Shown one piece after another: positions 1,674 to 54,650 of a stretch of 64,000 nucleotides of DNA. The stretch covers positions 1 through 64,000 of the IMG/VR virus record IMGVR_UViG_3300028423_001110; one strand, 5' to 3'. Under the pieces are notes generated by a model. That model was given only the letters and a program-made list of their open reading frames with translations. It was not told where the DNA came from and made no database searches. Source of the DNA: a virus. The first letter of the stretch is position 1, and each line of letters begins with the position of its first letter. A program made the translations under genes and the position numbers.

Positions 1674-2180
1674 CTAGTCCTGTTGAAAAATTCCGGTTAT
1701 TTGAATTGCATAACGATCTTCTAAGCTTAAATTATAAAATGTGTGAATGTCGTCGTTTTTCCAGCCGTACCAATCGCCAGATTTCCAATCAGTAAAAGCT
1801 TGTTTTTCAATTTGACATATTTGTCCAGGAACCCAGTCTTCTAAAAATAACATAATTCGAACGATGTTTTCGTTTTTTAAATTGTGCAGTTCTCTGTATC
1901 TAGTATATAAATCGCCATGCAACGGCAAATATTGTCCCGGAGTAAAAAGATTTATTGCTAGACTTACTTTTTTTAAAAATGTAAATTGGTCTTTAAGTGA
2001 TAAAATTTCAGTTGGAAGATTTTGTTCAAAACAATTGTAGAGATGTAAAGATTGTTCGCAGTGTCCTTTTGACACATACAAAGCATTTTTTTCTTCGCCT
2101 TTATATGAATCTAATTTATAAGGAAAAGTTTTAATCTGTTCTATGTTCCAAGTTGGTTCTATGTGTCCTTGCAATATCAT
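1674..2180 (-). CDS. Putative 2-oxoglutarate/Fe(II) dioxygenase or cupin-like protein
   Basis: A 168-residue protein with a plausible double-stranded beta-helix metal site. LPLHGD gives an HxD pair near residue 103, a distal His lies in DDIHTFYNL near residue 146, and an Arg follows in EDRYAIQITG. The order HxD...H...R matches Fe(II)/2OG oxygenases that hydroxylate peptides, sugars or small molecules. The block RIMLFLEDWVPGQ followed by WKSGDWYGWK is shared with the 150-residue protein at 44886-45338, which lacks the metal ligands. The start overlaps the end of the epimerase gene by about 50 bases, as in a tightly packed operon. The substrate cannot be told, and a non-catalytic cupin is the alternative. 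Confidence 0.5.
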   Translation of the reverse strand: MILQGHIEPTWNIEQIKTFPYKLDSYKGEEKNALYVSKGHCEQSLHLYNCFEQNLPTEILSLKDQFTFLKKVSLAINLFTPGQYLPLHGDLYTRYRELHNLKNENIVRIMLFLEDWVPGQICQIEKQAFTDWKSGDWYGWKNDDIHTFYNLSLEDRYAIQITGIFQQD

Positions 2181-3066
2181 TTTTTAATTCCTCAATAATA
2201 TTTGGTATTATTTCGTCAAATTTTCTAGGAGAGTAATCAGGAAAAACCTGTTTAAGTTTCGAAATATCAGGGCATCGACGTTGACAACTGCCTTGTAAAG
2301 AAGGCTGCATCTCCCATGTTATGTTGTGTATTCCTAAGCTACTTGCAATTACGTTTGCAGCCTCAACAATACTGATTTCTTCTTCGCTTCCTATATTAAT
2401 TATTTCACAGGACAGGTCTTGTATCGAAATCATGGCATCAACGGCATCGTTTACATAACAGAAGCTTCGTGTTTCGTGCCCGCCGATTAAGGTAAAATTA
2501 TTTAGAGAAATCTTATTAATGATATCTCTAATAAAATGACCTTCTCCTGTATTTTCGCTATAAACATTAAAAAATCTAATAATAATATAATTTAAGTTAC
2601 TATTAACTAGATAGTTCTCTGCTTGTATTTTAGGTAACCTGTAACTCCATCGTGGATTATGAATATTTTCAATGAAAGCATCATTGATTTCACTAGACGG
2701 AAACTGCTTTATTCCTGAAATAATTTCGCTACTGCTCCCGTAGATTATTTTTGTGTTAGGATTTTTCTCTGCAAATTTAAAAACCGCCAAATCAACAGTT
2801 GTGTTATTGTATAAAACATCTGTTGGATTTTTATAAAAAGATGTTGTTCCGTTTGTTGCTGCCATATGATAAATTATGTCGAAATTATTTTTGTTACTTT
2901 CTACAAAATTTTTCACATCATCTTGTACAAATTCGCAATTTAACGGTTTTACATTCTTAAAACGCTGATTATTATCGACTCCGATTACTTCATGGTGTGT
3001 TCCTAGTTGTTCACATAATTTTCTTCCAATTAAACCAGCTGCTCCAGTTACTAAAATTTTGCTCAT
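2131..3066 (-). CDS. NAD-dependent epimerase/dehydratase (SDR superfamily)
   Basis: Extended short-chain dehydrogenases of this group epimerise or dehydrate nucleotide-bound sugars. I place the start at the ATG at 3066, which gives MSKILVTGAAGLIG and puts the NAD-binding GxxGxxG at residues 8-14. An upstream in-frame ATG at 3093 would overlap the preceding gene. The catalytic set is visible: Ser in the IIYGSSSE block near residue 111, then Y142-RLP-K146 (YxxxK). IIRFFNVY and a substrate-site Arg in HETRSF follow, as in UDP-glucose 4-epimerases and dTDP-glucose dehydratases. The length of 311 residues is normal. It lies in the sugar module between a glycosyltransferase-like gene (one-base gap) and the dioxygenase-like gene. 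The exact reaction is not resolved. Confidence 0.88.
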   Translation of the reverse strand: MSKILVTGAAGLIGRKLCEQLGTHHEVIGVDNNQRFKNVKPLNCEFVQDDVKNFVESNKNNFDIIYHMAATNGTTSFYKNPTDVLYNNTTVDLAVFKFAEKNPNTKIIYGSSSEIISGIKQFPSSEINDAFIENIHNPRWSYRLPKIQAENYLVNSNLNYIIIRFFNVYSENTGEGHFIRDIINKISLNNFTLIGGHETRSFCYVNDAVDAMISIQDLSCEIINIGSEEEISIVEAANVIASSLGIHNITWEMQPSLQGSCQRRCPDISKLKQVFPDYSPRKFDEIIPNIIEELKNDIARTHRTNLEHRTD

Positions 3067-3067
3067 A

Positions 3068-4303
3068 TTATATTCCGTTATGTAATCTTCCATTTATGTT
3101 AAACAAAAAATGATCTATTTTTGTTAGACTATGTGTATTTGTAATCATAGTATTAAAATTATGAATAAGCTTTGATTTATTTTTAAAACGCCATTCTATC
3201 CTTTCAGCAGGAGATTGATTCTTTAATTTGTCAACTACTTGTTTTATTGATTTAAGTAACTTTTCATATCTTTTAATTGGATCCTTCTCCATATCGAAAC
3301 TTAGGTCAAACCAGTCATCATACAGTTTGTATCCGTAAGATTTTAGATAATGATTACAATACCTTTGACCGTAGATTACAAATGGTTGAAAGTTTTCGAT
3401 CGGGCGAAAAGTCTTTTCGCTGAAAAAAAGAGAAGTATTATTATAGTCTTCTACTTCGGTTTCATTTACAATTTGAAAGATTGTATCGCTGTGAATTTTT
3501 TTATAGTCAAAATCAGGCAACGCCCAATTTTTGTCGAAGTCTAATCGATCAATTATTAAAGGTAATTTGTTATTCCAATTGAGTACTTTATTTTCTTGAA
3601 CTTTGTCTAGAAGATTTTCGTCTCTAAACCATTGTAGTAACAGAGTTTTAGGGATCGCATCATGACTTATATTTGCATATCTTGCAATGTCTGAATCACA
3701 AAGAAAATAAGTTCCAATTGTTCGATATTTTCTATTTTTTCTACTTAAACTTGAAAAAATTCTGTCTTTATGGTCAGTTTGGCAATCAATATAAGCTGTT
3801 TCAAATCTCTCTTCAGTTGTTTTTTGATAAATGTCGTTTATTCTAGTGTTAAAGTTTCTTTCAAAGAACGGATAACAAAAAACATTCAGCGGCTCGAGAT
3901 TTTTTTTATTTAAAAATTTTTTTAAGTTTTCTAAATCATAGAGATTACTTGTGATATAGATAATATTTTTTGGAGAAACAGAGTATCTTTGACAATTAAA
4001 ATATAAAAAATCAAAATAGGGCACTTGGTATGGACTAAATCCCTCATTACCAAAATCTAGAAGAAAAAGTGCATTTCCTTGTTGTAATTCTAATAAGACT
4101 TCTTTTTTTAGATATTGAAATATATCAGTGTCTTTATTCCATTTAGTATACTTTGTTGAACTATAAATTAGTTTTTTATTTTTTAAATAAGTAAGTGATT
4201 TTTTATTTTTTTTGTAAGATTCTAAAAAGAGATCTCCGGTCGGAGTGCAAAAATTACACTGTGTAAATTCATTCTCAAGAAAACAATTAAGCAAAAGTTG
4301 CAT
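3068..4303 (-). CDS. Putative glycosyltransferase of the SEKTFRP family
   Basis: A 411-residue protein, first gene of the sugar module and one base after the gp55 stop. Its hallmark is a C-terminal block: IVNETEVED, then FFSEKTFRPIENFQPFVIYG, then LKSYGYKLYDDWFDLSFD. The same layout occurs at 42544-43722 (closest, also sharing SLSRKNRR and VSPKNI/VSPKKV blocks), 43676-44893 and 46979-47968. The Glu-Lys-Thr/Ser and Arg block resembles the donor-site region of GT-B fucosyl/exostosin-like transferases, and the sugar-gene setting supports that reading, but no family is assigned with certainty. The N-terminal half contains FLLDFGNEG and an unrelated-looking Rossmann-like stretch. No signal peptide or membrane segment is evident, so it should act in the infected cell's cytoplasm. 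Confidence 0.5.
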   Translation of the reverse strand: MQLLLNCFLENEFTQCNFCTPTGDLFLESYKKNKKSLTYLKNKKLIYSSTKYTKWNKDTDIFQYLKKEVLLELQQGNALFLLDFGNEGFSPYQVPYFDFLYFNCQRYSVSPKNIIYITSNLYDLENLKKFLNKKNLEPLNVFCYPFFERNFNTRINDIYQKTTEERFETAYIDCQTDHKDRIFSSLSRKNRKYRTIGTYFLCDSDIARYANISHDAIPKTLLLQWFRDENLLDKVQENKVLNWNNKLPLIIDRLDFDKNWALPDFDYKKIHSDTIFQIVNETEVEDYNNTSLFFSEKTFRPIENFQPFVIYGQRYCNHYLKSYGYKLYDDWFDLSFDMEKDPIKRYEKLLKSIKQVVDKLKNQSPAERIEWRFKNKSKLIHNFNTMITNTHSLTKIDHFLFNINGRLHNGI

Positions 4304-38852: not shown

Positions 38853-39412
38853 TGTACGTAATGTTTGAAGAAGGTTCTGGAAAGATAACAGGCATTACTC
38901 CGCGAAAAGACGTAAAGAACAGTATTCCTCTGCCTTTATCGAAGGCTATTGGGTTTTTAGAAGGAACCGAACGACGAAAAAATTATAGAGTAGAATATAA
39001 TCCTAAAGTTAAAAACCTAGAACTAGTTAACATTAGACAAGAACGATTTGATGGTAGATCGGTTAGCGATTTTATATACGAAATTCCAGAAGAAAGCGTT
39101 GAAAATGTTGATATAATGATAGAACAAGACATTTTACAAAAATGCTGGAGAATCAAGATCGGTCATAATCTTAAAAAAAATTTAAAAAATAAAGGAGTAA
39201 ATTTATCCAGTGTTTTGAGTTTTTCTATTACTGAAAAGCACGATCCTAATATTCTTTTTAAAACTTTAGATGTTAATTTTTCAAAACTTATGAAAAAAAA
39301 CTACGAAATTTTTCCTTTCGAATCAGAATTCGAATTTTGCGATATTCCAATAAGTATTTTTACTGCTAGAAAGTTTGATACATATCAATTTAAAAGGATT
39401 TTTAATGAATAA
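38837..39412 (+). CDS. Conserved marine-phage hypothetical protein
   Basis: A 191-residue protein beginning MSEKMMYVMFEEGSGKITGIT. Stretches such as ITGITPRKDVKNSI, KNYRVEYNPKVKNLELVNI and FTARKFDTYQFKRIF resemble a protein I recall from several marine myoviruses, always without function. The look is beta-rich with no catalytic signature. It is translationally coupled on both sides (15-base overlap with the transferase before, 8 bases with the next). Since it sits between glycosyltransferase genes it may be an accessory or structural partner of them. Confidence 0.55.
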   Translation: MSEKMMYVMFEEGSGKITGITPRKDVKNSIPLPLSKAIGFLEGTERRKNYRVEYNPKVKNLELVNIRQERFDGRSVSDFIYEIPEESVENVDIMIEQDILQKCWRIKIGHNLKKNLKNKGVNLSSVLSFSITEKHDPNILFKTLDVNFSKLMKKNYEIFPFESEFEFCDIPISIFTARKFDTYQFKRIFNE

Positions 39413-40307
39413 TACGATAAAAATAGTCGAACAAGATATAATATTTTTATCATACGACGAGCCAAATGCTGAAAAAAATTTTGCAGACCTTTGCCAAAAA
39501 ATTCCTTGGGCAAAAAGAGTTCATGGAGTAAAAGGATCAGACGCTGCACATAAAGCCTGTGCAGATTTATCTGAAACAGAGAATTTTGTTACAGTCGACG
39601 GCGATAATGTAATTGATCCAGATTTTCTTAACTTAAAAATTGACGTAGATGAACTTGGGTTAACAAAAGAACATGTATTTTCTTGGTGCGGAAAGATACA
39701 CGTGAATGGGTTAATGTACGGCAACGGCGGCCTTAAATTATGGAACAAAGATTTTGTAACAAACATGAAAACCCATGAAAATTCAGATAAAAATGACACA
39801 CCGAGTTTAGTTGAATTTTGTTTTGATAACAGATACTATCAATTTAATGAAAATTATTCTACTTCATTTACAAACGAGTCTCCTTTTCAAGCTTGGAGAG
39901 CGGGCTTTAGAGAAGGGGTAAAAATGAGCCTCGATCAAGGGAAAAAAGTAAGTTATATTAACTCAATTTGGTGGCAGAATTACGAACGTCTTCTTATTTG
40001 GTCTTCGATAGGTGCAGACGTAAAAAATGGCTTATGGAGCATTTATGGCGCTAGAGAAGGTTGTTATCTCACAAATTGCACAGACTGGGATTACACACAA
40101 GTACGAGATTTTGAATATTTAACAGAAAAATGGAACGAAAATTACCCAAAAATTTCTGAATCAGAGCTAAGAGATAAAATCGAAAGCGTGGGAGAAAAGC
40201 TTTCTAAAGAACTAAATTTAAATATCGAAACACTTACAGAAAAAGGTAGTAAATTTTTTAAAAAAGTTTATCATAATACACCTAGAATAATAAAGGCAGC
40301 AAAATGA
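39405..40307 (+). CDS. Putative GT-A-like transferase with VDGD motif
   Basis: I start at the ATG at 39405 (MNNTIKIVEQ), preceded by AAAAGGA; an upstream in-frame ATG at 39375 lies inside the previous gene. The 300-residue protein reads IIFLSYDEPNAEKNF, then AKRVHGVKGSDAAHKAC, then FVTVDGDNVID, a nucleotide-sugar-binding order with the acidic VDGD near residue 67 replacing the classic DxD. YGNGGLKLW and SPFQAWRAGFREGVK follow. The same domain forms the C-terminal 226 residues of the protein at 49975-51858. This looks like a small transferase family common in marine phages; the reaction is not known. Confidence 0.55.
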   Translation: MNNTIKIVEQDIIFLSYDEPNAEKNFADLCQKIPWAKRVHGVKGSDAAHKACADLSETENFVTVDGDNVIDPDFLNLKIDVDELGLTKEHVFSWCGKIHVNGLMYGNGGLKLWNKDFVTNMKTHENSDKNDTPSLVEFCFDNRYYQFNENYSTSFTNESPFQAWRAGFREGVKMSLDQGKKVSYINSIWWQNYERLLIWSSIGADVKNGLWSIYGAREGCYLTNCTDWDYTQVRDFEYLTEKWNENYPKISESELRDKIESVGEKLSKELNLNIETLTEKGSKFFKKVYHNTPRIIKAAK

Positions 40308-41704
40308 ATCAAGAATTAGAAAGAATTAAACAAGTTATGCCGATTACCGATTCTGAGATTTCTCCGACATTTTGTATGGCAAAATGGCATCATACTACAA
40401 TATATTTGCAAACAGGAGAAACTCATAGTTGTTATCATCCTTCTCCTCATGAAATACCATTAGAAGAAATTAAAGAAAATCCGTCGGCGCTGCATAATAC
40501 TAAAGAGAAAAAAATCGAAAGGCAGAAAATGCTCGACGGAAAGCAGCCGTCTGGTTGTAATTACTGTTGGAAGATTGAAGCAATGGGAAAAGATTATGTT
40601 TCAGATCGACATATTAAAACTGCTTCGATTTATACGCCAGAAAGATTAGACGAAATCAAGAATGGCGGAGCTGAATATAATATTAATCCAGAATATATTG
40701 AAATATCGTTTTCAAATGAGTGCAATTTTAAATGCGGGTATTGCCATCCTAAGGCCAGTTCTCGTTATTGGAAAGAAATCGATAGCAAAGGACCATATAA
40801 AGAATCAACAGAACACAGATTAGATATTGATTGGTTTAAAGTTTATCACAGAGAAGAAGAAAATCCCTATGTAAAAGCATGGTGGGAATGGTGGCCTGAA
40901 GTTTCAAAAACTCTTAATATTCTTCGTATTACAGGCGGCGAACCCCTTATGCATAAAAGCACTTGGGACTTATTTGATAGATTAGAAGAAGATCCCAAGC
41001 CTCATATTCAGATTGAAATAAATTCTAATCTTGGTGTAAAGACAAAACTTGTTGAAAAATTAGTAGAAAGAATAAATCATTTAAAGAATACTGGAAAAAT
41101 TAAGAGTTTTAAACTTTATACATCAATTGATACTTGGACTAACAGAGCCGAGTATGCAAGGCACGGGCTTGATTTAAATTTATGGGAAAAAAATCTAGAT
41201 TATTATCTTACAAAAACTAACATGCCTGTTACATTTATGATTACCTTTAATATTTTCTGTGTTACAAGTTTTAACACATTATTAGAGAAAATTTTAGAAT
41301 GGAGAAAAAAATATAATACGGATAAAAATCAAGGTCAGTGGCAGCTAGTAAGATTTGATACTCCTCACCTAAAAGAACCTACAATATTTGATATGAATAT
41401 TTTACCAAAAGAAGAATTCATGCCATATATGCATTCGCATCTAGATTTTATCCAAAAAAATGTTGATAATTCCGATAGAACAAAATTTACTGATCTTGAA
41501 TATGAAAAATTTAAAAGAGTTGTAGATTACATGGATTCAACACACTACAGTGAAAATAAACTTACTATCGCTAGAAAGAACTTTAATGCATGGTTTTCAG
41601 AGCACGATAAAAGAAGGAATACTTGTCTTACTGACACGTTTCCTGAATTAAAACCATTTTGGAATCTCTGTGCAGATCTTAATCAAAAAGAGCGTGTGGA
41701 ATAG
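40304..41704 (+). CDS. Radical SAM protein with N-terminal twitch-type cysteine cluster
   Basis: Radical SAM enzymes use a 4Fe-4S cluster and SAM to start radical chemistry. The canonical CxxxCxxC is CNFKCGYC at residues 140-147, followed by the SAM-binding GGEP in RITGGEPLMHK. Unusually, cysteines that suggest an additional iron-sulfur site come first: FCMAKWHH (C24), HSCYHP (C43), GCNYCWK (C85, C88). This arrangement is known from twitch-domain radical SAM proteins in marine phages and sugar clusters. At 466 residues it is full length. ATGA overlap with the previous gene implies coupling. The 3' end overlaps the convergent SGNH gene by 26 bases. The substrate is unknown; sugar or peptide modification is likely from context. 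Confidence 0.82.
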   Translation: MNQELERIKQVMPITDSEISPTFCMAKWHHTTIYLQTGETHSCYHPSPHEIPLEEIKENPSALHNTKEKKIERQKMLDGKQPSGCNYCWKIEAMGKDYVSDRHIKTASIYTPERLDEIKNGGAEYNINPEYIEISFSNECNFKCGYCHPKASSRYWKEIDSKGPYKESTEHRLDIDWFKVYHREEENPYVKAWWEWWPEVSKTLNILRITGGEPLMHKSTWDLFDRLEEDPKPHIQIEINSNLGVKTKLVEKLVERINHLKNTGKIKSFKLYTSIDTWTNRAEYARHGLDLNLWEKNLDYYLTKTNMPVTFMITFNIFCVTSFNTLLEKILEWRKKYNTDKNQGQWQLVRFDTPHLKEPTIFDMNILPKEEFMPYMHSHLDFIQKNVDNSDRTKFTDLEYEKFKRVVDYMDSTHYSENKLTIARKNFNAWFSEHDKRRNTCLTDTFPELKPFWNLCADLNQKERVE

Positions 41705-42543: not shown

Positions 42544-43722
42544 TTAGATATTAAGTAACTGCTTTTCTAGTTTTTTTATTGATTTTTTATCAGACGAAGT
42601 TGACATAAGAACTTTGTAATTATGTATAAGTTTTTCTTTCAATTGCCACCTCCACCTTATTTTTTCGTCTCGAGTCATTTTATTTAGAATACTAACGGTA
42701 TTGGATATGTTTGTTAATAACGCTGAATATCTGTCTGCAGGATCTTCGATAGTATCAAAACTATAATCAAATATTTCGTCGTATAACTGATAACCATATT
42801 CTTGCAATCTTTTATTACAATGCTGCTGTCCCCAAATTAGAAAAGGTTGCATATGGGCAATTGGTCTAAATGTTTTCTCAGAGAAAAATAAACAATGTCC
42901 GTTACAATTATCAGTTTCGGTTTCGTTTACAATCTGAAATAAAGTTCTATAATGCAAGTGACTATGTATTTTAAGAGCATGATTTGTAACAAAATCTTCA
43001 GTGTCGGCAATCAGCGGAAGAGTTTCGCTCCATTCTAATAATTTTGTTACAGACAATTTGTAGGTTTTTCTTAAAGACTCCAATTCAAAAGGTGTCATCT
43101 TATCATGACTTAAAATTCCTTTTGATAATAGATTGTTTTCCCAAAGTTTATAACAAGCATATGATCTATCTCGTCTATTTTTTCGACTTAGGCTTAGAAA
43201 ATATTTTGTTTTAAAATACCGAAAATTTTCTTTTTTTGTGTTTTTAAAAACAATTTCAGGACAGGAATCTTTGAAATGATTTTCGATCATGTGTGTTAGA
43301 GCAAATTTAAAATGCATAAAAACATAAACATTCAAACTTTGTTTAATTTTATTTTTCTTATTATATATTTTTATATTTTTATAATCCATAACATTACTAG
43401 AAACAAACAAAACTTTTTTTGGCGAAACATTATATTTCTCGCAGTTGTAATATAACATACTAAAAAAATTTTTATTAAATGGACAATATCCCTCTACACT
43501 AACATCAAACAAAAAAAAGACATGTGAATTATTTTTGATAGAATCTAATGCATTCTTTGTTAAATAGCAAAAAATGTCTGTATCAGAACTATAAGGTACA
43601 TATTCAAATTTTGCATGCACAAAGGAAATTCCAGACTCTTGTAAAGTTTGTTTAAAGAATACAGAAAAATTACTATCAGGAATTTGTTTTATTAGTTTGT
43701 TTGTTATTATTTGTTCTTCCAT
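42544..43722 (-). CDS. Putative glycosyltransferase of the SEKTFRP family
   Basis: A 392-residue protein, closest relative in the window of the one at 3068-4303. Shared features are FLFDVSVEGYCPF, LYYNCEKYNVSPKKV, YFLSLSRKNRRDRS, IVNETETDN, FFSEKTFRPIAHMQPFLIWG and LYDEIFDYSFD. The arrangement suggests a GT-B-like transferase with donor-site residues in the SEKTFRP block, an inference. It sits in the minus-strand operon behind a more distant family member, overlapping it by 47 bases. The two nearly equal proteins, 40 kb apart, suggest movement or duplication of whole cassettes within the genome. Confidence 0.5.
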   Translation of the reverse strand: MEEQIITNKLIKQIPDSNFSVFFKQTLQESGISFVHAKFEYVPYSSDTDIFCYLTKNALDSIKNNSHVFFLFDVSVEGYCPFNKNFFSMLYYNCEKYNVSPKKVLFVSSNVMDYKNIKIYNKKNKIKQSLNVYVFMHFKFALTHMIENHFKDSCPEIVFKNTKKENFRYFKTKYFLSLSRKNRRDRSYACYKLWENNLLSKGILSHDKMTPFELESLRKTYKLSVTKLLEWSETLPLIADTEDFVTNHALKIHSHLHYRTLFQIVNETETDNCNGHCLFFSEKTFRPIAHMQPFLIWGQQHCNKRLQEYGYQLYDEIFDYSFDTIEDPADRYSALLTNISNTVSILNKMTRDEKIRWRWQLKEKLIHNYKVLMSTSSDKKSIKKLEKQLLNI

Positions 43723-44893
43723 AAATTGTTTTATTCCTGTAAGGTAAGGTTTTTAGAATTTTAGAATTATGTTCTAAAATAGGCTGCATATCTTTATACA
43801 TTAATTCTAAATCTTGTATTTTTAAGCTTCCAATATAGTCTATTATTTCAAAAATTTGTGTTAATCTTTTTTCATGATTAATTTCAGTATCATAACTTTC
43901 GTCCCAAAATTTAGAAAAGGTCTTAAATCCGACTTTTTTAATATATTCTAATGTAAAAGGAGGACCAGCAATAACAAAAGGTGTTTTAAAAGCAACAGCA
44001 TCTAGAGTCTTTTCGCTGTAATTTGCACTAGGTTGTGCAAAGCGTGTTTCATTTACAATACAGCAAAATATTTGATTCATTTTTTCGATCCAACTTTGCG
44101 TTAAAATTCCGGTAAATTGAGGTACATCAGGTCGATAAAAAGCATATACGTCTTTTATGTTAATTGATTCTTGAATATCTATATAGTAGTTGTTTTCGTT
44201 TAATAAACTATTACCTTTTTCTAACATTTCTTTTTTGGGAAGATTATCTAACCATGATATATCGTTTAGAGTTAATAACGGAGATTTATAGAACCAACTA
44301 TAATGACCTTCAAAGTTAGCTAAGTAGCTCATAACTAAATGCCTATGCAGAGTATAACGAGCATTTGCACATAAAAAAGGTTTTTTTAGATCTTTTTGTA
44401 TCTCTTGATCATTGACTTTTCGTCCGTCTGTTACACTACTTACATATATATCTCGTGTTTTAAGAACACAATTTGTGTATAAAGAATGAAAATGTTCAGG
44501 TACATTATAATCACATAAATTTACTTCAAAAAAACATCCAACTTCTTCTGCAAAATTCTGAATAGAATCAAGTTCGTCTGCTCTTAAAGAAGGATCATTA
44601 TTAAAAATATGACTAAATTCACTATAATAACCTAGATTTTTTCTATTGTTTAACGAATAAGATATTGGTTCATATAAAAAAAATTCTATTTTTTGATTTT
44701 TAAGTTGTTTTTTTATTTTTGGATCCCGCAAAAATCTTGAAAAGTTTATTTTGTTTGTTCCTGTAAATAAAAAAACAGGCTCTTTTATTTTAGACAAAAA
44801 AGTTTCAAAAAACGTTAATTTATATGTATTAATTCTTTTGGGAGATTCTTTAGTTGGAATGTTTTTCCAAAATAATCCATGCATATTATTCAT
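43676..44893 (-). CDS. Putative glycosyltransferase, distant SEKTFRP-family member
   Basis: A 405-residue protein. The C-terminal third has the family pattern IVNETRFAQPSANYSEKTLDAV, TPFVIAGPPFTLEYIKKVGF and FSKFWDESYD. The N-terminal half differs from the other members (VFLFTGTNKINFSRFLRDP) and may bind another acceptor. The last residues are Asn/Thr/Lys-rich. It overlaps the 150-residue gene upstream by 8 bases and the next transferase by 47 bases, so all belong to one transcript. The enzymatic role is inferred from this context and the shared block only. Confidence 0.45.
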   Translation of the reverse strand: MNNMHGLFWKNIPTKESPKRINTYKLTFFETFLSKIKEPVFLFTGTNKINFSRFLRDPKIKKQLKNQKIEFFLYEPISYSLNNRKNLGYYSEFSHIFNNDPSLRADELDSIQNFAEEVGCFFEVNLCDYNVPEHFHSLYTNCVLKTRDIYVSSVTDGRKVNDQEIQKDLKKPFLCANARYTLHRHLVMSYLANFEGHYSWFYKSPLLTLNDISWLDNLPKKEMLEKGNSLLNENNYYIDIQESINIKDVYAFYRPDVPQFTGILTQSWIEKMNQIFCCIVNETRFAQPSANYSEKTLDAVAFKTPFVIAGPPFTLEYIKKVGFKTFSKFWDESYDTEINHEKRLTQIFEIIDYIGSLKIQDLELMYKDMQPILEHNSKILKTLPYRNKTIYGRTNNNKQTNKTNS

Positions 44894-45338
44894 CTCTAAT
44901 TCCTAATATTTCTAAAATATACATGTTGTCCGACCCTAGGTTTGCCTGTAAAAAATTTTCATCATAGGTCCAAACAGCATAGTCTCCCTTTTTATAACAG
45001 GTTAGCGGTTTATTTTGTATTTCGAAATAATGTCCTGATTTCCACTCGTCTAAAAATAAGCAAGCTTGCCAAATTCTACTTTTATTTAACTTTGTTTTTT
45101 CTGAAAAATTTTCAAAAACATTTTTATTTGAACAAACTTTTGAATCTTTTTTAAATTTAAGAAACCTAAACTCGCAATTAATCAAACCTAAAATATTAGA
45201 AATTTCTAACAACCAATTGAAGTCCTTGCCTTCAGCCTCGTAAATCTCAATAAGCGGATCAAAGGTAGAAATAACATAATTAAAGTATTCGTGTTCATCT
45301 GTCCAAATATCTTCTGTATTGCCAATGAGAAGAGCCAT
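44886..45338 (-). CDS. Degenerate paralogue of the dioxygenase/cupin-like protein
   Basis: A 150-residue protein whose C-terminal half aligns with the protein at 1674-2180: RIWQACLFLDEWKSGHYFEIQ against RIMLFLEDWVPGQ, then CYKKGDYAVWTYDENF against WKSGDWYGWKNDDIH, then MYILEILGI against YAIQITGI. The HxD pair and distal His of the other copy are not found at the aligned places, so metal-dependent catalysis is unlikely. It may be a non-catalytic binding partner or a protein undergoing decay, though the frame is intact. Three bases separate it from the amidinotransferase upstream in the operon. Confidence 0.5.
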   Translation of the reverse strand: MALLIGNTEDIWTDEHEYFNYVISTFDPLIEIYEAEGKDFNWLLEISNILGLINCEFRFLKFKKDSKVCSNKNVFENFSEKTKLNKSRIWQACLFLDEWKSGHYFEIQNKPLTCYKKGDYAVWTYDENFLQANLGSDNMYILEILGIRDE

Positions 45339-45341
45339 ATT

Positions 45342-46307
45342 TTATTCTCTTATAAGGTCTAAAGTAACGCAATGAAATCCTCCACCTAGGGTTCTTTGGT
45401 GTCGAAGAGGTAACATCATACAATCTATTTTATACTGTTCAAGTTTTTTACGTAACTCGTGCTGATTTTTTTCTAGTACTACTAGATTTTCATTTATACT
45501 TAGTAAATTCATTCCGACCCAAATACTAGCATTATTATAATTTTTGTAAAATCCTGTATCAAACATTTCTGGAGAATAAATTATATCCCAATCACAAAAT
45601 GGTTTAGGTAACTGATTCTTGTTTTTAATTCTTGAAGGATTTGCTAATAATAACCCTTCTCGCAAAAAACAAATAGTCGAGTCTATATGCATATAGCTAT
45701 ATACATTTTCAAGTTTATGTACTTTAATGTTATCACCTAAAATTGCTTGAAGCAGATCGGCCCCTTTTCTATTTCCGCTATTCGAAACTAGATATAATAA
45801 ATCATTATTTGCTCTAATTACATTTGCAGCATCAAATGCCGGTACGGTTTCGTTTAAAGCTAAAATTTCAAGATTATTAACACATTCGAGATTATACAAA
45901 GAGTCGTCAATTTCTAAATTAATATCTATGATGTTGTTATCTAAATGTTTTTGAAAAGAACGCCAGTCAGAATTTCTAACTCTAATTGGCATAGGTGTTG
46001 CTATTGCTAAATTGTTTTGAATTAAAACATTATCTCTCGGGCAGTAATTATAGTATTCGCAATTTGTAGCATCGGGCCTTACTACTTCTATTTTCTCCTT
46101 TTTTAGATTATCGCAAAAAATTTCTAGATCTTCATTTGTTTCGTCTATTACTTTTTTGGGATAAGAACCAACAGGTATAGTTGAAGGATCACTGTTATCG
46201 GCATAGTTAACAGTTCGTATACTTTTGTCTATCTTTGGAATTTTAGCATTATCGGCTATACCTACAATTACTTTTTTTAATTGAGTCCATTCGTTGTTTG
46301 ACTGCAT
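45342..46307 (-). CDS. Amidinotransferase (AGAT/StrB-type)
   Basis: Enzymes of this family move the amidino group of arginine onto an amine, making guanidino compounds such as guanidinoacetate or the guanidino cyclitols of streptomycin. The catalytic triad is visible: Cys in the signature GGGFHC near residue 313, His in SYMHIDS near residue 207, and an Asp in the CPRD block near 107. These match glycine and inosamine-phosphate amidinotransferases; the length of 321 residues is near the family's 350. The HCVTLDL after the Cys is normal for the family. It lies seven bases behind a DegT-type aminotransferase gene, which could supply the amine acceptor. The substrate is otherwise unknown. Family call firm. 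Confidence 0.85.
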   Translation of the reverse strand: MQSNNEWTQLKKVIVGIADNAKIPKIDKSIRTVNYADNSDPSTIPVGSYPKKVIDETNEDLEIFCDNLKKEKIEVVRPDATNCEYYNYCPRDNVLIQNNLAIATPMPIRVRNSDWRSFQKHLDNNIIDINLEIDDSLYNLECVNNLEILALNETVPAFDAANVIRANNDLLYLVSNSGNRKGADLLQAILGDNIKVHKLENVYSYMHIDSTICFLREGLLLANPSRIKNKNQLPKPFCDWDIIYSPEMFDTGFYKNYNNASIWVGMNLLSINENLVVLEKNQHELRKKLEQYKIDCMMLPLRHQRTLGGGFHCVTLDLIRE

Positions 46308-46314
46308 TATTATC

Positions 46315-46911
46315 TCACTGAAAATCGAAAACTTTCATTTGTCTTAAATCAGGATAGTCGTTATAATTCCATATCCTTGGTGTAGTATTTTTTGCTTCAT
46401 TTAATTTTTCTAGGCCAAGCGATGCTGTTTCAGGTGTCATATAATAATGATACCCGATTGATTCGATATTTTGAAACGCCCAGGGAGTATTTAACATGCG
46501 CCCGTCGTAAACCATTTTCTTTAATATTTTGTATGCATTTTTATCATCGCACAAGATCATTCCTCCTCGACCTAAACTTAGGTGTTTTTGAAATTGAAAG
46601 CTAAGGCACATAAATGTTCCTTTAATATAGCCGTCTTTTTCGAAAAATGTTGCAGCGTCAATAATCGAAGTTTTATTTAGGAAATAATATTTTTGCCATT
46701 TTTCTGTATTAAAATTCCATTGGCAATTTATTTTCATTAATGTAAACGGAATGCTTATATATGTGTTACAAGGACATTCTACATAAGTTGGATTCAGATA
46801 CCTTAAGCAGAGTTCGATAGAATGTGTGCAGCTATCAGTTGCTATTGCATACGGCGATCCGAAGTAACTAGAAATTTCTCCTTCAAATTCTTCAACAGTA
46901 TTAAAATCCAT
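46315..46911 (-). CDS. Shortened DegT/DnrJ/EryC1/StrS-type aminotransferase
   Basis: PLP enzymes of this family aminate keto sugars. I use the ATG at 46911 (MDFNTVEEFEGE), with CTGGAG as ribosome site; an ATG at 46995 would overlap the divergent gene. The Ser/Thr phosphate-binding block ATDSCTHSIEL (residues about 23-33), the Asp of SIIDAATFF (for the pyridine N), the Schiff-base Lys in SFQFQKHLSLGRGGMI, and the later GYHYYMTPETASLGLEKL all fit the core of the family. At 198 residues it is about half the usual length: the linker is compressed and the C-terminal domain missing. It starts the minus-strand operon with the amidinotransferase. Activity of so short a form is uncertain. Confidence 0.72.
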   Translation of the reverse strand: MDFNTVEEFEGEISSYFGSPYAIATDSCTHSIELCLRYLNPTYVECPCNTYISIPFTLMKINCQWNFNTEKWQKYYFLNKTSIIDAATFFEKDGYIKGTFMCLSFQFQKHLSLGRGGMILCDDKNAYKILKKMVYDGRMLNTPWAFQNIESIGYHYYMTPETASLGLEKLNEAKNTTPRIWNYNDYPDLRQMKVFDFQ

Positions 46912-46978: not shown

Positions 46979-47968
46979 ATGAAGAGTAAGAACATCTGTA
47001 CTGATTATTTTTCGAATACTGATCAAGACCTTGTAGATTCTCTAAATGAATCAGACGATTTTGATACAGTCAATATTTTTTGCGCTCAAGAATTTGAAGT
47101 ATTTTATAAATGGAAAGGTAGAGAAAGCTATAAATTATTAGAAAAATTAATTCGCAACGGCGTAACTGTTAATATACTGTTTAATGGATTTAACACAGAA
47201 AAGCATAAATCATATGTTGACGTGCCACCTGGAACAATTTTGCACTATTGGCCGGAATATTTGTTATATCATAGTTTTATTATAGCAAAAGAATCACCTT
47301 TTCCTAAACCAAAAAAGATAAAAAAAATTTTTCTTTCTTATAATAGAGCACCACATAATCATCGTTGCCTTTTAATGGATTTATTGGCTAAAAGAAATTT
47401 ATTAAAAGAAGGAAAATGCTCGTGGTTACACCCTCATCCTAATTACGAATTTAAATATTGGAAACAAGAAAAGCTAACTTTAGATATTAAACGTCCTAAA
47501 GACAGAGCATTTCAGTGGCTAGGCAGACCTATTGAATTATCTAATACTTTTGTACAATTAGTACCAGAAACAAGTATCGAAATACAGTCATTAACTGAAA
47601 AAACTTATCTTCAAATCTTGTTTAAAAGACCTTTTTTAATTTTTGGAGCTTCTGGTATTCACCGTAAATTATCTGAATTAGGTTTCGAAATGTATGATGA
47701 AATTTTTGATTATAGTTTTGACGAAATAGAAGATCTAGAAGAAAGAGGAGAGAAGCTATTAGATAATTTGGAAAATCTAAAAGGAAAAAATTTAAATAAA
47801 TTGCGAAAAAAACTTCTTCCTAAGATCGAAAGGAATTTTAATAATGCAATGAAAATTATAAATAGCTGGAATAATGTTCCTGAAATATTAAAAAATTATT
47901 ATAATACAAATGAAACAGTTCGTATATACGAACATGTTTTTAAACATCTAAACGGAGTACAAAAATGA
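46979..47968 (+). CDS. Putative glycosyltransferase, SEKTFRP family, short member
   Basis: A 329-residue protein. The C-terminal half keeps the family shape: FVQLVPETSIEIQSLTEKTYLQILFKR-type block (TEKTY replacing SEKTF), PFLIFGASGIHRKLSELGF and MYDEIFDYSFDEIEDL. FLSYNRAPHNHRCLLMDLL near residue 120 parallels the SLSRKNRR block of other members. The N-terminal third (TDYFSNTDQDLVDSLNE) is unique. It is coupled by an ATGA overlap to the dehydrogenase downstream. Transferase activity is inferred. Confidence 0.47.
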   Translation: MKSKNICTDYFSNTDQDLVDSLNESDDFDTVNIFCAQEFEVFYKWKGRESYKLLEKLIRNGVTVNILFNGFNTEKHKSYVDVPPGTILHYWPEYLLYHSFIIAKESPFPKPKKIKKIFLSYNRAPHNHRCLLMDLLAKRNLLKEGKCSWLHPHPNYEFKYWKQEKLTLDIKRPKDRAFQWLGRPIELSNTFVQLVPETSIEIQSLTEKTYLQILFKRPFLIFGASGIHRKLSELGFEMYDEIFDYSFDEIEDLEERGEKLLDNLENLKGKNLNKLRKKLLPKIERNFNNAMKIINSWNNVPEILKNYYNTNETVRIYEHVFKHLNGVQK

Positions 47969-49188
47969 AAGTGGGTTTTATAGGATTAGGCAAGCTAGGT
48001 ATGACTTGCGCAGAAACAATTGCAAAAAAAGAAATTTCTGTAACCGGCTTTGATATTGAGAATGTACAAAGTGATTTTGTTGACATTAAAAATAATATTA
48101 AAGACACAGTAAGTGATCGAGATATTGTTTTTATTGCTGTGCCTACTCCGCACGATCCTGAATACGACGGTAAAACTCCTATTGCAAATCTTTCTCCTAA
48201 AGATTTCAATTATTCTATTGTAAAAAACGTGCTGTCTGAAGCCGAACAATACATGACAAAAAATCAGTTGTTGGTATTGATTTCTACAGTTTTGCCAGGA
48301 ACTACTAGAAGAGAATTTGTCTCCTTGGTTAACAATACTAATTTTATCTATAATCCGTATTTAATAGCTATGGGTACGGTTGAGTACGATATGCTTAATC
48401 CAGAAATGATAATGATAGGCACTGACGATGGGTCAAACACCGGTAATGCACGAAAATTAATTAATTTTTATGAAAACATAATGGAAAACAATCCTAGATT
48501 TGTAATCGGTACCTGGGACGAATGTGAATGTATTAAAGTTTTTTACAACACTTTTATTTCTGCAAAAGTTGGTTTAGTAAACATGATACAAGATGTTGCT
48601 CAAAAACAAGGTAATATAAATGTTGATATAGTTACTACTGCACTAGCTCAGTCTACTATGAGAATTATGAGTCCGCAATATATGACAGCAGGCATGGGCG
48701 ACGGCGGATCATGTCATCCTAGAGACAACATTGCATTAAGATATCTAGCTAAAGAACTAGATCTTGGATATGATTTATTTGATTCTATAATGCAGGCAAG
48801 AGAAATACAGGCAGAAAATTTAGCCAAAGAATTAGTTAAACATGCTAATGAAACCAACATGCCGATATATATTCATGGTAAAGCCTATAAACCTAAAGTA
48901 CCATATATTGATGGAAGTTACAGTTTGTTAGTTGGATATTATGTGAAAGAAATGGGTTTCGAACCTATTTACATAGATCCTTATACAGGCGATGATTATC
49001 AGCCAACCAATCCAGGTGTATTTTTAATGGCGCATTCTGCAAGTATTACTTATGATTATACCAAAGACAAAGCAAAAGACGAAATTTATTGTGTTATTCC
49101 TCCTAGTAGCATTATTATAGATCCTTGGAGGAAAATAACAAGCTCGGTTAGTCGAGTAATACACTACGGTAACACTAGAAATGTTTGA
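47965..49188 (+). CDS. Nucleotide-sugar dehydrogenase, UDP-glucose/GDP-mannose family
   Basis: A full-length (407-residue) relative of the shortened enzyme at 895-1668. The Rossmann motif GFIGLGKLG opens the protein; VFIAVPTPHD, LISTVLPGTTRRE, YNPYLIAMGTVEYD and FYNTFISAKVG follow the family order. The catalytic Cys is in GDGGSCHPRDN near residue 250. The C-terminal region (GKAYKPKVPYIDGSYS, then IYIDPYTGDDY) is the UDP-binding domain that the other copy lacks. It would make a sugar acid from a nucleotide sugar. It overlaps both neighbours, so it is part of a plus-strand module of the island. Confidence 0.87.
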   Translation: MKVGFIGLGKLGMTCAETIAKKEISVTGFDIENVQSDFVDIKNNIKDTVSDRDIVFIAVPTPHDPEYDGKTPIANLSPKDFNYSIVKNVLSEAEQYMTKNQLLVLISTVLPGTTRREFVSLVNNTNFIYNPYLIAMGTVEYDMLNPEMIMIGTDDGSNTGNARKLINFYENIMENNPRFVIGTWDECECIKVFYNTFISAKVGLVNMIQDVAQKQGNINVDIVTTALAQSTMRIMSPQYMTAGMGDGGSCHPRDNIALRYLAKELDLGYDLFDSIMQAREIQAENLAKELVKHANETNMPIYIHGKAYKPKVPYIDGSYSLLVGYYVKEMGFEPIYIDPYTGDDYQPTNPGVFLMAHSASITYDYTKDKAKDEIYCVIPPSSIIIDPWRKITSSVSRVIHYGNTRNV

Positions 49189-49974: not shown

Positions 49975-51174
49975 ATGTACGACTTATTTTTCATTTCAGA
50001 AGAAAAAACACAAGAATGGTTCAATTTAAAAAGTCTTTACCCAACAGCAAAACATTCAAAAACTATACTCGATGCTTCTAAAAAAAGTTTTACTTCTCAT
50101 TTTTGGTGTGTTTTCTCAGATTTAGACCTAGACAAAACCTTTGACTTTTCGTTTATTCCAGATAATTGGAGCAAAGATTACATCCATGTTTTTAGAAATA
50201 AAAATTATTTTGACGGAGTGTGTTTAATTCCTAAAAATAATCTTCCGTCAGAAAAAGAAGCAAATTTTCGTTTTTTTACCAATAAAAAAGAAGTTGATAT
50301 AAATGCATCAACACCAAAAAAATATGAAATATTTTATATAAACACTTACGAAGATTATCTTAATGCTGCGGAAAATTGTTTAACAACCTTTTTTTGGGCA
50401 GTTCCAGACGACATTTCTATAAATTTTAATTTTGATTATCAAGCTGCACATTGGGAAAAGTATCCGCACGTTTTTAAAAATAACAGCTATTATGACGGAT
50501 TGATGCTTTTTCCAAAAGATAAACTTGTAACAGAAAAAGAATTTAATTATCGATTTTTTATCAAAAAGAAAGAAGTCGATCTTATGCTATCAACACCAAA
50601 ACCTTATGATAAATTTTTTATTGATTCCTATGAAGAATATCTTAACGCAAATAAAACATCAAAAAGTAACTTCTTTTGGGTTATACCTAGCACCGTAGAG
50701 TTACACAAAGATTTTGATTTTAATTATCAAGCTGCTTATTGGGAAAAATTCCCGCATGTTTTTTTAAACGGTTCTTATTTCGATGGTGTAACTTTACATA
50801 ACAAAGACAATATCGTATCTAAAAAAGAATTTGAATTTAAATTTTTTGTAAAAAGAAAAGAAATAGACATAGTTGCGTCGTTTCCGAAAAAATATGACTA
50901 TTTTGATGTTAGCAATTATAATGATTATTTAAAAGCAACAGAAGAAGCAAAAACCAACTTTTTCTGGTTTGTTCCAGAAGATGTCAGTACAAGTTTTAAT
51001 TTTGAATATCAAGCAGCCGAATGGGAAAAATATACACACGTTTTTTTAAATAATCAATTTTATGACGGTATCTGTCTTTTTAATAAAGATGAAAAAGTGT
51101 CAAAAAAAGAATTTGATCATAGATTTTTTATGAAGAAAAAAGAAGTAGATATAAATGCTTCAGATCCTAGAAGA
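49975..51174 (+). repeat. Tandem protein-coding repeats, four units
   Basis: Units run from residues 1-116, 117-210, 211-306 and 307-400 (third boundaries at 50323, 50605 and 50893), and the intact domain starts at 51175. The later three are nearly equal in length (94-96 codons). They share the unit end KKxEVDxxxSxPKx and the internal YQAAxWEK block, and resemble one another more than they resemble the intact domain. Confidence 0.75.
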
Positions 51175-51858
51175 TTCGATATTGTCTTTATTTCGTATAA
51201 CGAACCTAATGCAGATTACAACTACAAACAGTTACTTAAAATTGCACCAAAAGCAAAAAGAATACAAAATGTAAAAGGAATACACAAGGCACATATCGAA
51301 GCAGCAAAACTTGTTAAAACTGAAATGTTCTGGATCGTAGACGGAGATGCTTTGATGCAAGAAAATTTTAAATTTGAATATCAAGTTCCTAGATGGGATC
51401 AAGATGTTGTGCATGTATGGAGATCAAAAAACCCGGTAAATAATCTAAGTTACGGATATGGTGGAGTTAAATTACTTCCGACTAAATTAACATTAAATAT
51501 GTCGCAGGACAATCTTGATATGACAACAAGTATTAGCAATAAGTTTAAAACGGTAGACGAAATATCTAATAAAACAATGTTTAATACTAGTAGTTTTAGT
51601 GCATGGAAGTCTGGATTTAGAGAATGTGTAAAGCTAGCAAGCGGAATTATAAAAAAATCCTGTGAAGAAGAAACACAGGAAAGATTAGATACTTGGTGTA
51701 ATGTAGGAGTTAATATAAAATTCGGCATCGATACAATTAGAGGCGCGGTTGACGGAAGAGAATACGGAATTAAAAACAAAGATGATAAAATTGCTTTAGA
51801 GAAAATAAATGACTTCAACTGGTTATACAGAAGATTTTCAAAAAATCCCATTCGATAA
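49975..51858 (+). CDS. Multi-repeat protein: four degenerate copies and one intact VDGD domain
   Basis: A 627-residue protein. Its last 226 residues (from FDIVFISYNEPNADYN) are closely like the 39405-40307 protein, with MFWIVDGDALMQ, YGYGGVKLLP and FSAWKSGFRECVK. Ahead of it lie four degenerate units of 94-116 residues, each with F(F)W, then an acidic or altered motif in place of VDGD (FSDL, PDD, PST, PED), then FDYQAAHWEKYPHVF-like and YYDGLMLFPKD-like blocks, and ending in KKxEVDxxAS-P. The copies lack most of the putative catalytic part. They may bind substrate, act as a ruler, or mediate assembly. The next radical SAM gene overlaps its end by 50 bases. Confidence 0.55.
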   Translation: MYDLFFISEEKTQEWFNLKSLYPTAKHSKTILDASKKSFTSHFWCVFSDLDLDKTFDFSFIPDNWSKDYIHVFRNKNYFDGVCLIPKNNLPSEKEANFRFFTNKKEVDINASTPKKYEIFYINTYEDYLNAAENCLTTFFWAVPDDISINFNFDYQAAHWEKYPHVFKNNSYYDGLMLFPKDKLVTEKEFNYRFFIKKKEVDLMLSTPKPYDKFFIDSYEEYLNANKTSKSNFFWVIPSTVELHKDFDFNYQAAYWEKFPHVFLNGSYFDGVTLHNKDNIVSKKEFEFKFFVKRKEIDIVASFPKKYDYFDVSNYNDYLKATEEAKTNFFWFVPEDVSTSFNFEYQAAEWEKYTHVFLNNQFYDGICLFNKDEKVSKKEFDHRFFMKKKEVDINASDPRRFDIVFISYNEPNADYNYKQLLKIAPKAKRIQNVKGIHKAHIEAAKLVKTEMFWIVDGDALMQENFKFEYQVPRWDQDVVHVWRSKNPVNNLSYGYGGVKLLPTKLTLNMSQDNLDMTTSISNKFKTVDEISNKTMFNTSSFSAWKSGFRECVKLASGIIKKSCEEETQERLDTWCNVGVNIKFGIDTIRGAVDGREYGIKNKDDKIALEKINDFNWLYRRFSKNPIR

Positions 51859-52819
51859 AATTTGTAAAGTAGGTCAAAAAACACTATTTGATAAAAAACT
51901 TTTTACAGTATCTTGGATATTAGCAAGATTTTGTAATTATAATTGTTCCTACTGCTGGCCGTATGCTCGATCGTCTAAACCGGATCATCGGTCTCTTAGC
52001 ACATATTTTTGGGTAATTGACGAAATTAAAAGACAGGCAAATACAAACGGATTTGACGAATTTCATTTTTCTTTCTCTGGTGGAGAACCGACTGCCTATA
52101 ACAAGTTTTTAGACATTGTAAAATATTATTCAAATGATCACAATTCAAATTATCAAAGCATACATATGACCACAAATTTAAGCCCAGGTAGTAAATGGTG
52201 GGTTAAATGGTTAAACAGTACAAAGACCTTACAACGCAGAAGTATCACAGCAAGTTACCATGCAGAATTTGCACGAGAGCAAGAATTTGGTGATAAATGT
52301 CTTCAATTAATTAATGACGGCGTTTTTGTTACAATTAATCAAGTAATGGTTCCGGAACTTTTTGATCAATACTATGATAGATGTATGCGGTTTTCAAACA
52401 GAGGTATAAACGTTACGCTAAAACCTCAAAGTGATCCGACTGCAAGTTTTGTTGTAAATGGATATACAGAAGAACAAATTAATTTGTTACAAACCGGCTT
52501 CCCGCAACATTACTACGGAGATATTGTGTATCAAATGTTGTTAGAAGACGATCGAGGGCACAGTTATAATTTTGATCAAGCTGAAAGATTAAACGCATTT
52601 GGTTTTAATAAGTTTAAAGGGTGGCAATGCAATTCTGGCTATCAAAGTTGCATTATTCGAGAACCCGGTGGTGAGGTAAAAAGATCGTATAGTTGTCACG
52701 ATTTGCCTTTAGGAACAATAGACAAAGGATTTGATTTATTCACAGAGAGTAAACCTTGTATAACTCCTACTTGCGTTAGTTCAGCAGATTCAAAAATACC
52801 TAAATTTAAGAAACCTTAA
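51809..52819 (+). CDS. Radical SAM protein
   Basis: A 336-residue enzyme with the cluster motif CNYNCSYC (C42, C46, C49) shortly after FTVSWILARF, and the SAM-binding block FSFSGGEPTAYNKF near residue 92. LHMTTNLS-like (IHMTTNLSPG) and SITASYHAEFA follow the radical SAM barrel order. Cysteines near the C-terminus (WQCNSGYQSCIIREPGGE, SCHDLPLG, CITPTCVSS) suggest an additional iron-sulfur binding region of the SPASM/twitch kind. The ATG at 51809 lies inside the previous gene, with 50 bases of overlap. The end overlaps the convergent radical SAM gene by 14 bases. Substrate unknown. Confidence 0.82.
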   Translation: MTSTGYTEDFQKIPFDKICKVGQKTLFDKKLFTVSWILARFCNYNCSYCWPYARSSKPDHRSLSTYFWVIDEIKRQANTNGFDEFHFSFSGGEPTAYNKFLDIVKYYSNDHNSNYQSIHMTTNLSPGSKWWVKWLNSTKTLQRRSITASYHAEFAREQEFGDKCLQLINDGVFVTINQVMVPELFDQYYDRCMRFSNRGINVTLKPQSDPTASFVVNGYTEEQINLLQTGFPQHYYGDIVYQMLLEDDRGHSYNFDQAERLNAFGFNKFKGWQCNSGYQSCIIREPGGEVKRSYSCHDLPLGTIDKGFDLFTESKPCITPTCVSSADSKIPKFKKP

Positions 52820-54650
52820 CAGAATCAATAATATTAAAGTTTTTTAAGTAATTGTTTACTTCGTTTTGACTCAAGTCGGATAAACCATTTTTTTCTAAAT
52901 TTATTTTTGCTACAGGAATCATTCCTAACGCAAGTTTGTCCATATCTAGATTTAAATTTTGCTTTTCATACCACAATAAAAAATTTTCTAATCTTGAATT
53001 ATAATAATCGTCGGGTATGTTAGGACCAAACCAAGCCATAAAATCTGCACTATAATGTTTAAGAGGAACAATTTCATCTTGATTATAATTCGTAACTTTA
53101 AATGCATCTAAAAGCGGCATGCCGACTTCGCAATAGTTTATATAAATTGTTCCATATTCCCATTGAAAAGTAAATAATTTATAGTCAGACGTTTGTAACA
53201 GATATTTTGGTCTGTTCTGAAATGTACCTACAATTCTTGGACACGGATATTTCTTTTCTGTTTCGTTCCACTCACTAAATCTTTTAGTTTCTTTTAATTT
53301 ATAATTCAGAGATATTTCATTTGCCCATTTTTGTGCAATACTTGATTGATTAATATCAAATACTAATGTTGTTTTTGAATTGGTGTAGTTGCTCGATGAC
53401 AACGTAAGATAAAAATTATTATAAAATAAACTATTACATCGAATTTCTGAAAATTTAGTAAAGAAATTTTCGTTTCTAATTTGGTCTATATACTTTGTTT
53501 GCCGCAAAAATTCATTTTTTTCTTTTTCCCATGTATTTTTTTGTTTTGTAAAATGCATACCGTCTTGTAGTATACTACAGATATGGGGATAACTTTTTTG
53601 ATATTTTTTGATAAATTTTTCACATTTTTTGCCTGCTTCTTTTTTAATTTCAATAGGAAGACTTTGTGGATTGTAATAGGGAGGATTAATTGCTGGTGTG
53701 AGCGTGTGCGCAGAACTTTCAGGTGTGATAATTTTTTTATCTATCATAAATTCGTAAAAATCGGTGATGCTGGGATAGTTAAAAAAACTTAAAACAGTAT
53801 TAATTTCAAATGTTATATGATCCAAAATGCTTACAGTTTGAAGATTTTCTTCAATTTTTTTCCAATTTGTTCCGTGCCGAATCCATTCGGCCTTCTCTCC
53901 AAAATGATCTATACTACAACTAATATTTACTGATTCGAATTTTTTCCAAAGAGATACAATATCTCTGCCCTTATATTTAAGTGTACTTAAATTTGTATTA
54001 TATTTTAGTTTGACGTTTGTTCTTTCTGCTTGAATAAGATTATCCAGTATAATATAGTGCTCTTCGGTTAATAGAGGTTCGCCTCCAGCAAAATAAATCA
54101 TATCGATGTATTCGATCTGTTCTATTACTTCTTTTAGTAATGCCCCGGTGGCATCTGCATGTATGACAGTAGGTGTTTTAAAATTTTGATGTTTTGCTTG
54201 TTCTTCTGCCCACTTTGAACTAAATTCTGATCCGCAAGTTCTACATTTAAAATTACATATATTACTAAACCTAATATCAACATACCGCATTTTAAAGTCA
54301 TTAACTTTTCCGTCTTCTTCTGTAGTATGTACGATTTCGTCAAAAAACCTTCCAAAATTCTCATTTGCAAAGCTTCGAAAACTCGAATTTCCAATTTCTT
54401 CTTGCTTATAGCAAAACTCGCAAATTTTACTTTTTTTGTTAGAAAGCATGTTTTTGCGTAATAATTTCATATCTTTAACATTAAATGCTTCTTCTAGACT
54501 AACATCGTTGGTATTTGCAAAAGGAGTAGTATAATTATTAGAACAGCAAGGGTACACATCTCCTTTCGGAGTTACATTTAAATGTACCCAAGGAAACATA
54601 CAAAATGTCTTGCTTTCATTTAGCAAAACCTTCTTATTTATTTTTGTCAT
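52806..54650 (-). CDS. Large radical SAM protein with N-terminal twitch-type cluster
   Basis: A 614-residue protein. The N-terminus gives additional cluster cysteines: FCMFPWVHLNVTPKGDVYPCC (residues 17-36) and ICEFCYKQEE (77-80). The SAM-cluster motif CNFKCRTC follows at 132-139 and IYFAGGEPLL near 195, then ISCSIDHFG. The same N-terminal architecture is in the 40304 gene. The C-terminal 250 residues (from about 360) have no recognised domain; SADFMAWFGPNIP is notable. Its promoter region is divergent to the methyltransferase gene, with a late-like box. Transcribed alone on the minus strand between plus-strand modules. Substrate unknown. Confidence 0.82.
   Translation of the reverse strand: MTKINKKVLLNESKTFCMFPWVHLNVTPKGDVYPCCSNNYTTPFANTNDVSLEEAFNVKDMKLLRKNMLSNKKSKICEFCYKQEEIGNSSFRSFANENFGRFFDEIVHTTEEDGKVNDFKMRYVDIRFSNICNFKCRTCGSEFSSKWAEEQAKHQNFKTPTVIHADATGALLKEVIEQIEYIDMIYFAGGEPLLTEEHYIILDNLIQAERTNVKLKYNTNLSTLKYKGRDIVSLWKKFESVNISCSIDHFGEKAEWIRHGTNWKKIEENLQTVSILDHITFEINTVLSFFNYPSITDFYEFMIDKKIITPESSAHTLTPAINPPYYNPQSLPIEIKKEAGKKCEKFIKKYQKSYPHICSILQDGMHFTKQKNTWEKEKNEFLRQTKYIDQIRNENFFTKFSEIRCNSLFYNNFYLTLSSSNYTNSKTTLVFDINQSSIAQKWANEISLNYKLKETKRFSEWNETEKKYPCPRIVGTFQNRPKYLLQTSDYKLFTFQWEYGTIYINYCEVGMPLLDAFKVTNYNQDEIVPLKHYSADFMAWFGPNIPDDYYNSRLENFLLWYEKQNLNLDMDKLALGMIPVAKINLEKNGLSDLSQNEVNNYLKNFNIIDSVKVS

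Follow-up and report, generated by a model that had tools for sequence, protein, structure and literature searches.

A StrB1-like amidinotransferase beside a half-size DegT-family protein in a marine phage: a candidate route to guanidino sugars

Why should a marine phage carry a gene for an amidinotransferase directly beside one for a DegT-type aminotransferase of half the usual size? The window considered here, a stretch of 64,000 nucleotides, spans positions 1 to 64,000 of a 66,781-bp IMG/VR record (IMGVR_UViG_3300028423_001110) and holds both genes on one strand, DegT first, with a gap of 7 bp between them (Table 1). A preliminary description of this stretch had read the pair as a PLP enzyme that makes an amine, followed by an enzyme that turns the amine into a guanidino group; its coordinates and both enzyme classes held up. 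So did the attribution to a phage: virion structural, baseplate hub/tail lysozyme and tail-fibre genes are present on the record, and these, together with the finding of the mini-DegT family only in viruses within these searches, rule out bacterial contamination or host DNA. A single open reading frame of 5055 aa (window 14445-29612) lies amid the virion structural genes.

Table 1. The gene pair and associated features, with positions in the window.
Feature	Position	Strand	Evidence
Mini-DegT PLP sugar aminotransferase, 198 aa (predicted)	46315..46911	-	PF01041 60.2 bits; AF2 model; Foldseek
StrB1-like L-arginine:amine amidinotransferase, 321 aa (predicted)	45342..46307	-	1bwd E=9.5e-64; TM 0.95 to 1bwd
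Degenerate homologue of 2OG-Fe(II) oxygenase-like third gene	44886..45338	-	alignment with family
Nucleotide-sugar 6-dehydrogenase, UDP-glucose dehydrogenase (UGD) family	47965..49188	+ (divergent strand)	PF03721/PF00984; TIGR03026 E=1e-44; PHROG UDP-glucose dehydrogenase E=3.5e-93
Nucleotide-sugar epimerase/dehydratase-type SDR	2131..3093	-	PHROG nucleotide-sugar epimerase E=1.6e-44; PF16363 67.5 bits at 2302-3054
Conserved neighbour, 405 aa, possible glycosyltransferase	43676..44893	-	within 5 kb of 36/48 amidinotransferase loci

The best match of the amidinotransferase in phmmer searches was StrB1 (1bwd; 219 bits over residues 4-320), against 113 bits for HsvA and 102 bits for human AGAT. 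Its AF2 model (pLDDT 95.2, pTM 0.92) has a predicted pentein fold and superposes on 1bwd with an rmsd of 1.5, compared with TM scores of 0.89 for HsvA and 0.88 for AGAT. Residues Asp92, Asp159, His207, Asp209 and Cys313 are all kept and are invariant across 23 phage relatives, the catalytic Cys/His/Asp residues align with those of StrB1 and AGAT, and purifying selection is evident (median dN/dS of 0.083). By homology and model, the phage enzyme is a predicted member of the L-arginine:X amidinotransferase family (StrB1/AGAT type). On its sequence it does not group with StrB1 proper (inosamine-phosphate amidinotransferase), as the phage proteins form a separate clade outside the StrB1 clade (support 100/99) and are ∼38-44% identical to their StrB1-like counterparts in bacteria. 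Cyanophage S-SCSM2R encodes, near KdsA/KdsB, a second protein that resembles an amidinotransferase but is very divergent (locus L037, 8354-9247), and weak further matches of this kind occur in two other records (L108 and L110).

The search for the pair in other phages, which the preliminary description had proposed, recovered it repeatedly. A mini-DegT lies near the amidinotransferase in 73 of 81 non-redundant amidinotransferase loci (DegT on the same strand in 71, upstream in 70). Among the eight remaining records, three carry a mini-DegT elsewhere on the record by whole-record search and five are short or truncated by the end of the contig, so that both genes share a record in 76 of the 81 loci and the others are fragmentary. 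At the 48 loci with 5 kb of room on both sides, DegT was the most persistent neighbour tested (within 5 kb in 43/48), ahead of the 405-aa gene family. Mini-DegT records lacking a nearby amidinotransferase behaved differently: in 27 of 31 the whole record gave no amidinotransferase match or, in one case, a weak and divergent match alone, these including records as large as 642 kb and 195 kb. The dependency is one-way, the amidinotransferase occurring essentially never without DegT and DegT often without the amidinotransferase. An asymmetry of this sort is what one would predict were DegT the source of an amine and the amidinotransferase an optional later step, and it supports the amine-then-guanidino order of the aminocyclitol logic first put forward for the pair. 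Chance neighbourhood is ruled out by the persistence of the linkage in rearranged loci. In the cultured Synechococcus phage S-SCSM2R, both genes belong to a single series of genes for glycosyltransferases, radical SAM proteins and oxygenases.

The linkage is not without exceptions. Separation of the genes in relatives had been named beforehand as an observation that would count against the idea, and it occurs in three records, where some 18-24 kb separate the amidinotransferase from a mini-DegT that adjoins an acetyltransferase. Such distances would suit an amidinotransferase whose acceptor is a small amine from another source than DegT (glycine, a polyamine, ethanolamine or similar), with adjacency reflecting service to the same surface glycan. 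The same reading would accommodate the recognisable kinship of the enzyme to HsvA and AGAT, the Met that phage enzymes share with human AGAT at its Met302 position (Thr in StrB1), and the distant amidinotransferases of Campylobacter phages, which lie amid radical SAM genes (the stretch examined in F379 has no mini-DegT). We nevertheless regard a small-amine substrate as unlikely, given that StrB1 is clearly the closest relative in both score and fold and that DegT is the most persistent neighbour in a dependency that runs one way.

The mini-DegT would have to supply the amine despite its size. Its PF01041 match (cut-off 19.8 bits) comes in two stretches, N-terminal and central only; the profile matches stop near position 240 of 360, and roughly 120-160 family residues, the C-terminal domain (C-terminal third) included, are missing. 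The full-length architecture of about 360-400 aa is accordingly absent, and relatives measure 194-204 aa. A 226-aa open reading frame at this position is an upstream extension: relatives begin at the position of 46911, where GGAG stands immediately 5′ of the ATG, indicating that 198 aa is the correct length. At least 592 related loci came up in the scan of viral sequences (the 80 best were retained), and this is a phage family with hundreds of metagenomic copies; because relatives are all ∼195-200 aa, the short form represents a stable family. A decayed fragment is ruled out by this constant length, by a median dN/dS of 0.094 and by the confident, closed fold of the AF2 model (pLDDT 94, pTM 0.90). 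The top Foldseek match of the model was GDP-perosamine synthase (3dr4; E=2e-10, TMq 0.73), followed by other sugar aminotransferases. Lys109, which aligns with the catalytic Lys of known sugar aminotransferases, and Asp85 are near-invariant among 140 relatives, and it is on the profile match and these PLP-binding residues that we assign the protein to the DegT/DnrJ/EryC1/StrS family. When 20 bacterial genomes that encode StrB1-like proteins were searched, just one yielded a close mini-DegT, located on a phage contig assigned to a Chloroflexi MAG. This contig (PAAV01000010.1) carries a divergent mini-DegT (40%) and amidinotransferase (38%) and, by eye, apparently also carbamoyltransferase-like and halogenase-like genes.

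We know of no DegT-family aminotransferase as short as ∼195 aa that is known to be active. The missing residues and C-terminal domain might indicate that the mini-DegT employs its PLP in a different reaction, or assists a host enzyme without being catalytic itself, the amine then being of host origin. We consider this improbable in view of the near-invariant Lys109 and Asp85, the low dN/dS, the confident fold and the acetyltransferase neighbours of the family. ColD-type 3-dehydratases have His in place of the DegT-family catalytic Lys, and the mini-DegT keeps the Lys.

Mini-DegT loci that lack the amidinotransferase suggest what the protein may act upon. In most of them a GDP-mannose 4,6-dehydratase gene (TIGR01472, E=9e-118) stands beside DegT, usually after it, and the same loci carry a WbuC cupin and in some cases hexapeptide acetyltransferases or a C-methyltransferase. 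Across 140 DegT loci, the amidinotransferase was nearby in 97, the dehydratase in 31 and both in none; the dehydratase is absent beside DegT in the group of the window and present in the sister group, as found when the GDP-perosamine pathway was looked for. This split tracks few branches of the tree (3 changes of the dehydratase label, 8 of the amidinotransferase label) and is therefore strong as a description and weak as a count of independent events, of which there are far fewer than loci. Fisher tests on the split take no account of common descent and are not read here as probabilities. Two amidinotransferase records have a strong GMD-type dehydratase elsewhere, meaning that the split concerns the neighbourhood only. 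The cultured Flavobacterium phage Immuto (MW353176.1) encodes a distant mini-DegT of 214 aa, and the next gene after it specifies a sugar acetyltransferase of the NeuD/PglB type (TIGR03570, 155 bits). Judged by gene context, the dehydratase and acetyltransferase neighbours together with Immuto suggest that the mini-DegT acts in amino-sugar making, with acetyl and amidino groups as alternative caps. The guanidinylated sugar proposed at the outset consequently keeps its sugar setting and changes, on the evidence of these neighbours, into a nucleotide amino sugar.

The aminocyclitol route itself fared less well. No member of the inositol-dehydrogenase family (GFO/IDH/MocA, PF01408) was found in 24 amidinotransferase records, this phage included, by a search that matched in all 14 control genomes, whereas matches to nucleotide-sugar dehydratases/epimerases were present in 18 of the 24, this phage among them. 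These two results favor a nucleotide sugar over an aminocyclitol, and a guanidinylated nucleotide amino sugar is the best reading of the predicted product; the flanking UGD-family gene and the SDR would fit a UDP-sugar. A true streptomycin-like route, in which a keto-inositol would receive its amino group from DegT and an inosamine phosphate would be the amidinotransferase substrate, draws on the nearest solved relative being an inosamine-phosphate amidinotransferase and on StrB1 lying near a DegT in Streptomyces clusters, and is made highly improbable by the missing PF01408 gene (a search confined to that dehydrogenase family in the 24 records) and by the ties of mini-DegT relatives to NDP-sugar enzymes. 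DNA modification was considered as a role, and no support for it was seen.

Other genes of the region are consistent with a glycan setting, to differing degrees. The sugar dehydrogenases announced alongside the pair are there in the form of the UGD-family gene, a possible source of precursor, whose family occurs within 5 kb of 25/48 amidinotransferase loci. The SDR, the sole PF16363-family match on the record, is a possible 4-keto-sugar source. Glycosyltransferases, likewise announced, could be recognized only in part: neither Pfam nor PHROGs gave a significant family match for the immediate neighbours of the pair, the 405-aa neighbour had no Pfam match above the cut-off and no PDB match, and profile searches with its putative glycosyltransferase family found nothing. 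The third-gene family (2OG-Fe(II) oxygenase-like; weak matches to Asp_Arg_Hydrox PF05118 in 11/21 members) is near 30/48 amidinotransferase loci with room. The copy in the window lacks the metal-binding HxD...H and the Arg, having N71, N73, F129 and M139 instead, unlike nearly all relatives, and with these residues replaced it is probably dead as an oxygenase. It is also worth noting that the region holds four radical SAM genes (40304-41704, 51809-52819, 52806-54650 and 55353-56441; one with a SPASM domain), and that such genes cluster with an amidinotransferase in Campylobacter phages too. A 627-aa protein (window 49975-51858) has about four modules in tandem, each of roughly 90-100 residues, ahead of a C-terminal domain resembling window 39375-40307, and is a possible repeat-bearing glycan enzyme.

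On the observed homologies, fold, invariant catalytic residues, purifying selection and gene linkage, we put at roughly 60% the probability that the pair supplies those steps of a phage nucleotide-sugar pathway that install an amino group and convert it into a guanidino group. In such a pathway the mini-DegT, as a minimal fold-type-I PLP enzyme, would aminate a keto-sugar nucleotide, probably at C4, in the manner of perosamine synthase or ArnB. The StrB1-like enzyme would then move the amidino group of arginine onto the new amine via a Cys313 intermediate, as the conserved Cys/His/Asp residues suggest, yielding a guanidino sugar that neighbouring glycan genes may attach to phage structural proteins or a host surface glycan. 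In sister phages the mini-DegT would be fed by the phage GDP-mannose 4,6-dehydratase, and in some a sugar acetyltransferase would cap the amine instead. More tentatively, these phages may encode a complete guanidino-sugar pathway with the smallest known DegT-family sugar aminotransferase, the charged sugar being placed on tail proteins or the host surface and altering adsorption or blocking competing phages.

To our knowledge, guanidino sugars of this kind are known only from a few antibiotics. The recurrence of the pair in scores of other phages makes a guanidino-bearing sugar probable here. If so, phages would make a sugar that is positively charged at neutral pH, and effects on adsorption or superinfection would be likely; the half-size DegT family would represent a minimal PLP sugar aminotransferase of use in enzymology. 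Cultured phages make the idea testable, S-SCSM2R having both genes and Immuto the mini-DegT with an acetyltransferase. The idea also counsels care before such viral amidinotransferases are annotated as glycine amidinotransferases of creatine metabolism.

The pair had been introduced as having no counterpart among described phage systems, which is nearly right. In the open-access literature no paper came to light that proposes phage guanidino glycans or a route to guanidino sugars in phages, and none that links a phage amidinotransferase with DegT; nor did anything relevant emerge on amidinotransferases in connection with O-antigen or on S-SCSM2. Single genes were already named in GenBank, for S-SCSM2R as inosamine amidinotransferase and 3-amino-5-hydroxybenzoic acid synthase and for Campylobacter phages as glycine amidinotransferase. 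Creatine biosynthesis genes, chiefly GAMT, are treated in a survey of ocean viruses (PMC11360552). A phage precedent is the module of Campylobacter phages CP220 and CPt10, a cluster with an amidinotransferase and many radical SAM genes for which a role in general metabolism was proposed (PMC2853527); its amidinotransferases are only 24-26% identical to those described here, and the stretch examined contains no mini-DegT. The streptomycin system of Streptomyces griseus shares with the phage pair the amidinotransferase fold, the catalytic residues, the closest sequence (StrB1) and a DegT-family gene in the same cluster; it differs in that the phage amidinotransferases form their own clade, the phage DegT is half-size, and the phage pair is set among glycan genes, with no inositol dehydrogenase found. 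The GDP-perosamine pathway (GDP-mannose 4,6-dehydratase, perosamine synthase and N-acetyltransferase) resembles the phage genes in that the mini-DegT fold is nearest to perosamine synthase and that sister phages pair the mini-DegT with GDP-mannose 4,6-dehydratase and in some cases have a hexapeptide acetyltransferase as well. Perosamine synthase is ∼370 aa, however, and the group of the window has an amidinotransferase rather than a dehydratase beside DegT. Amino-sugar formation of the PglE/PglD and ArnB type follows the same order, an aminotransferase and then an amine-modifying enzyme, as does the pairing of mini-DegT with a NeuD/PglB-type acetyltransferase in Immuto; there the amine is capped by an acetyl or formyl group, whereas the cap proposed for the phage pair is an amidino group.
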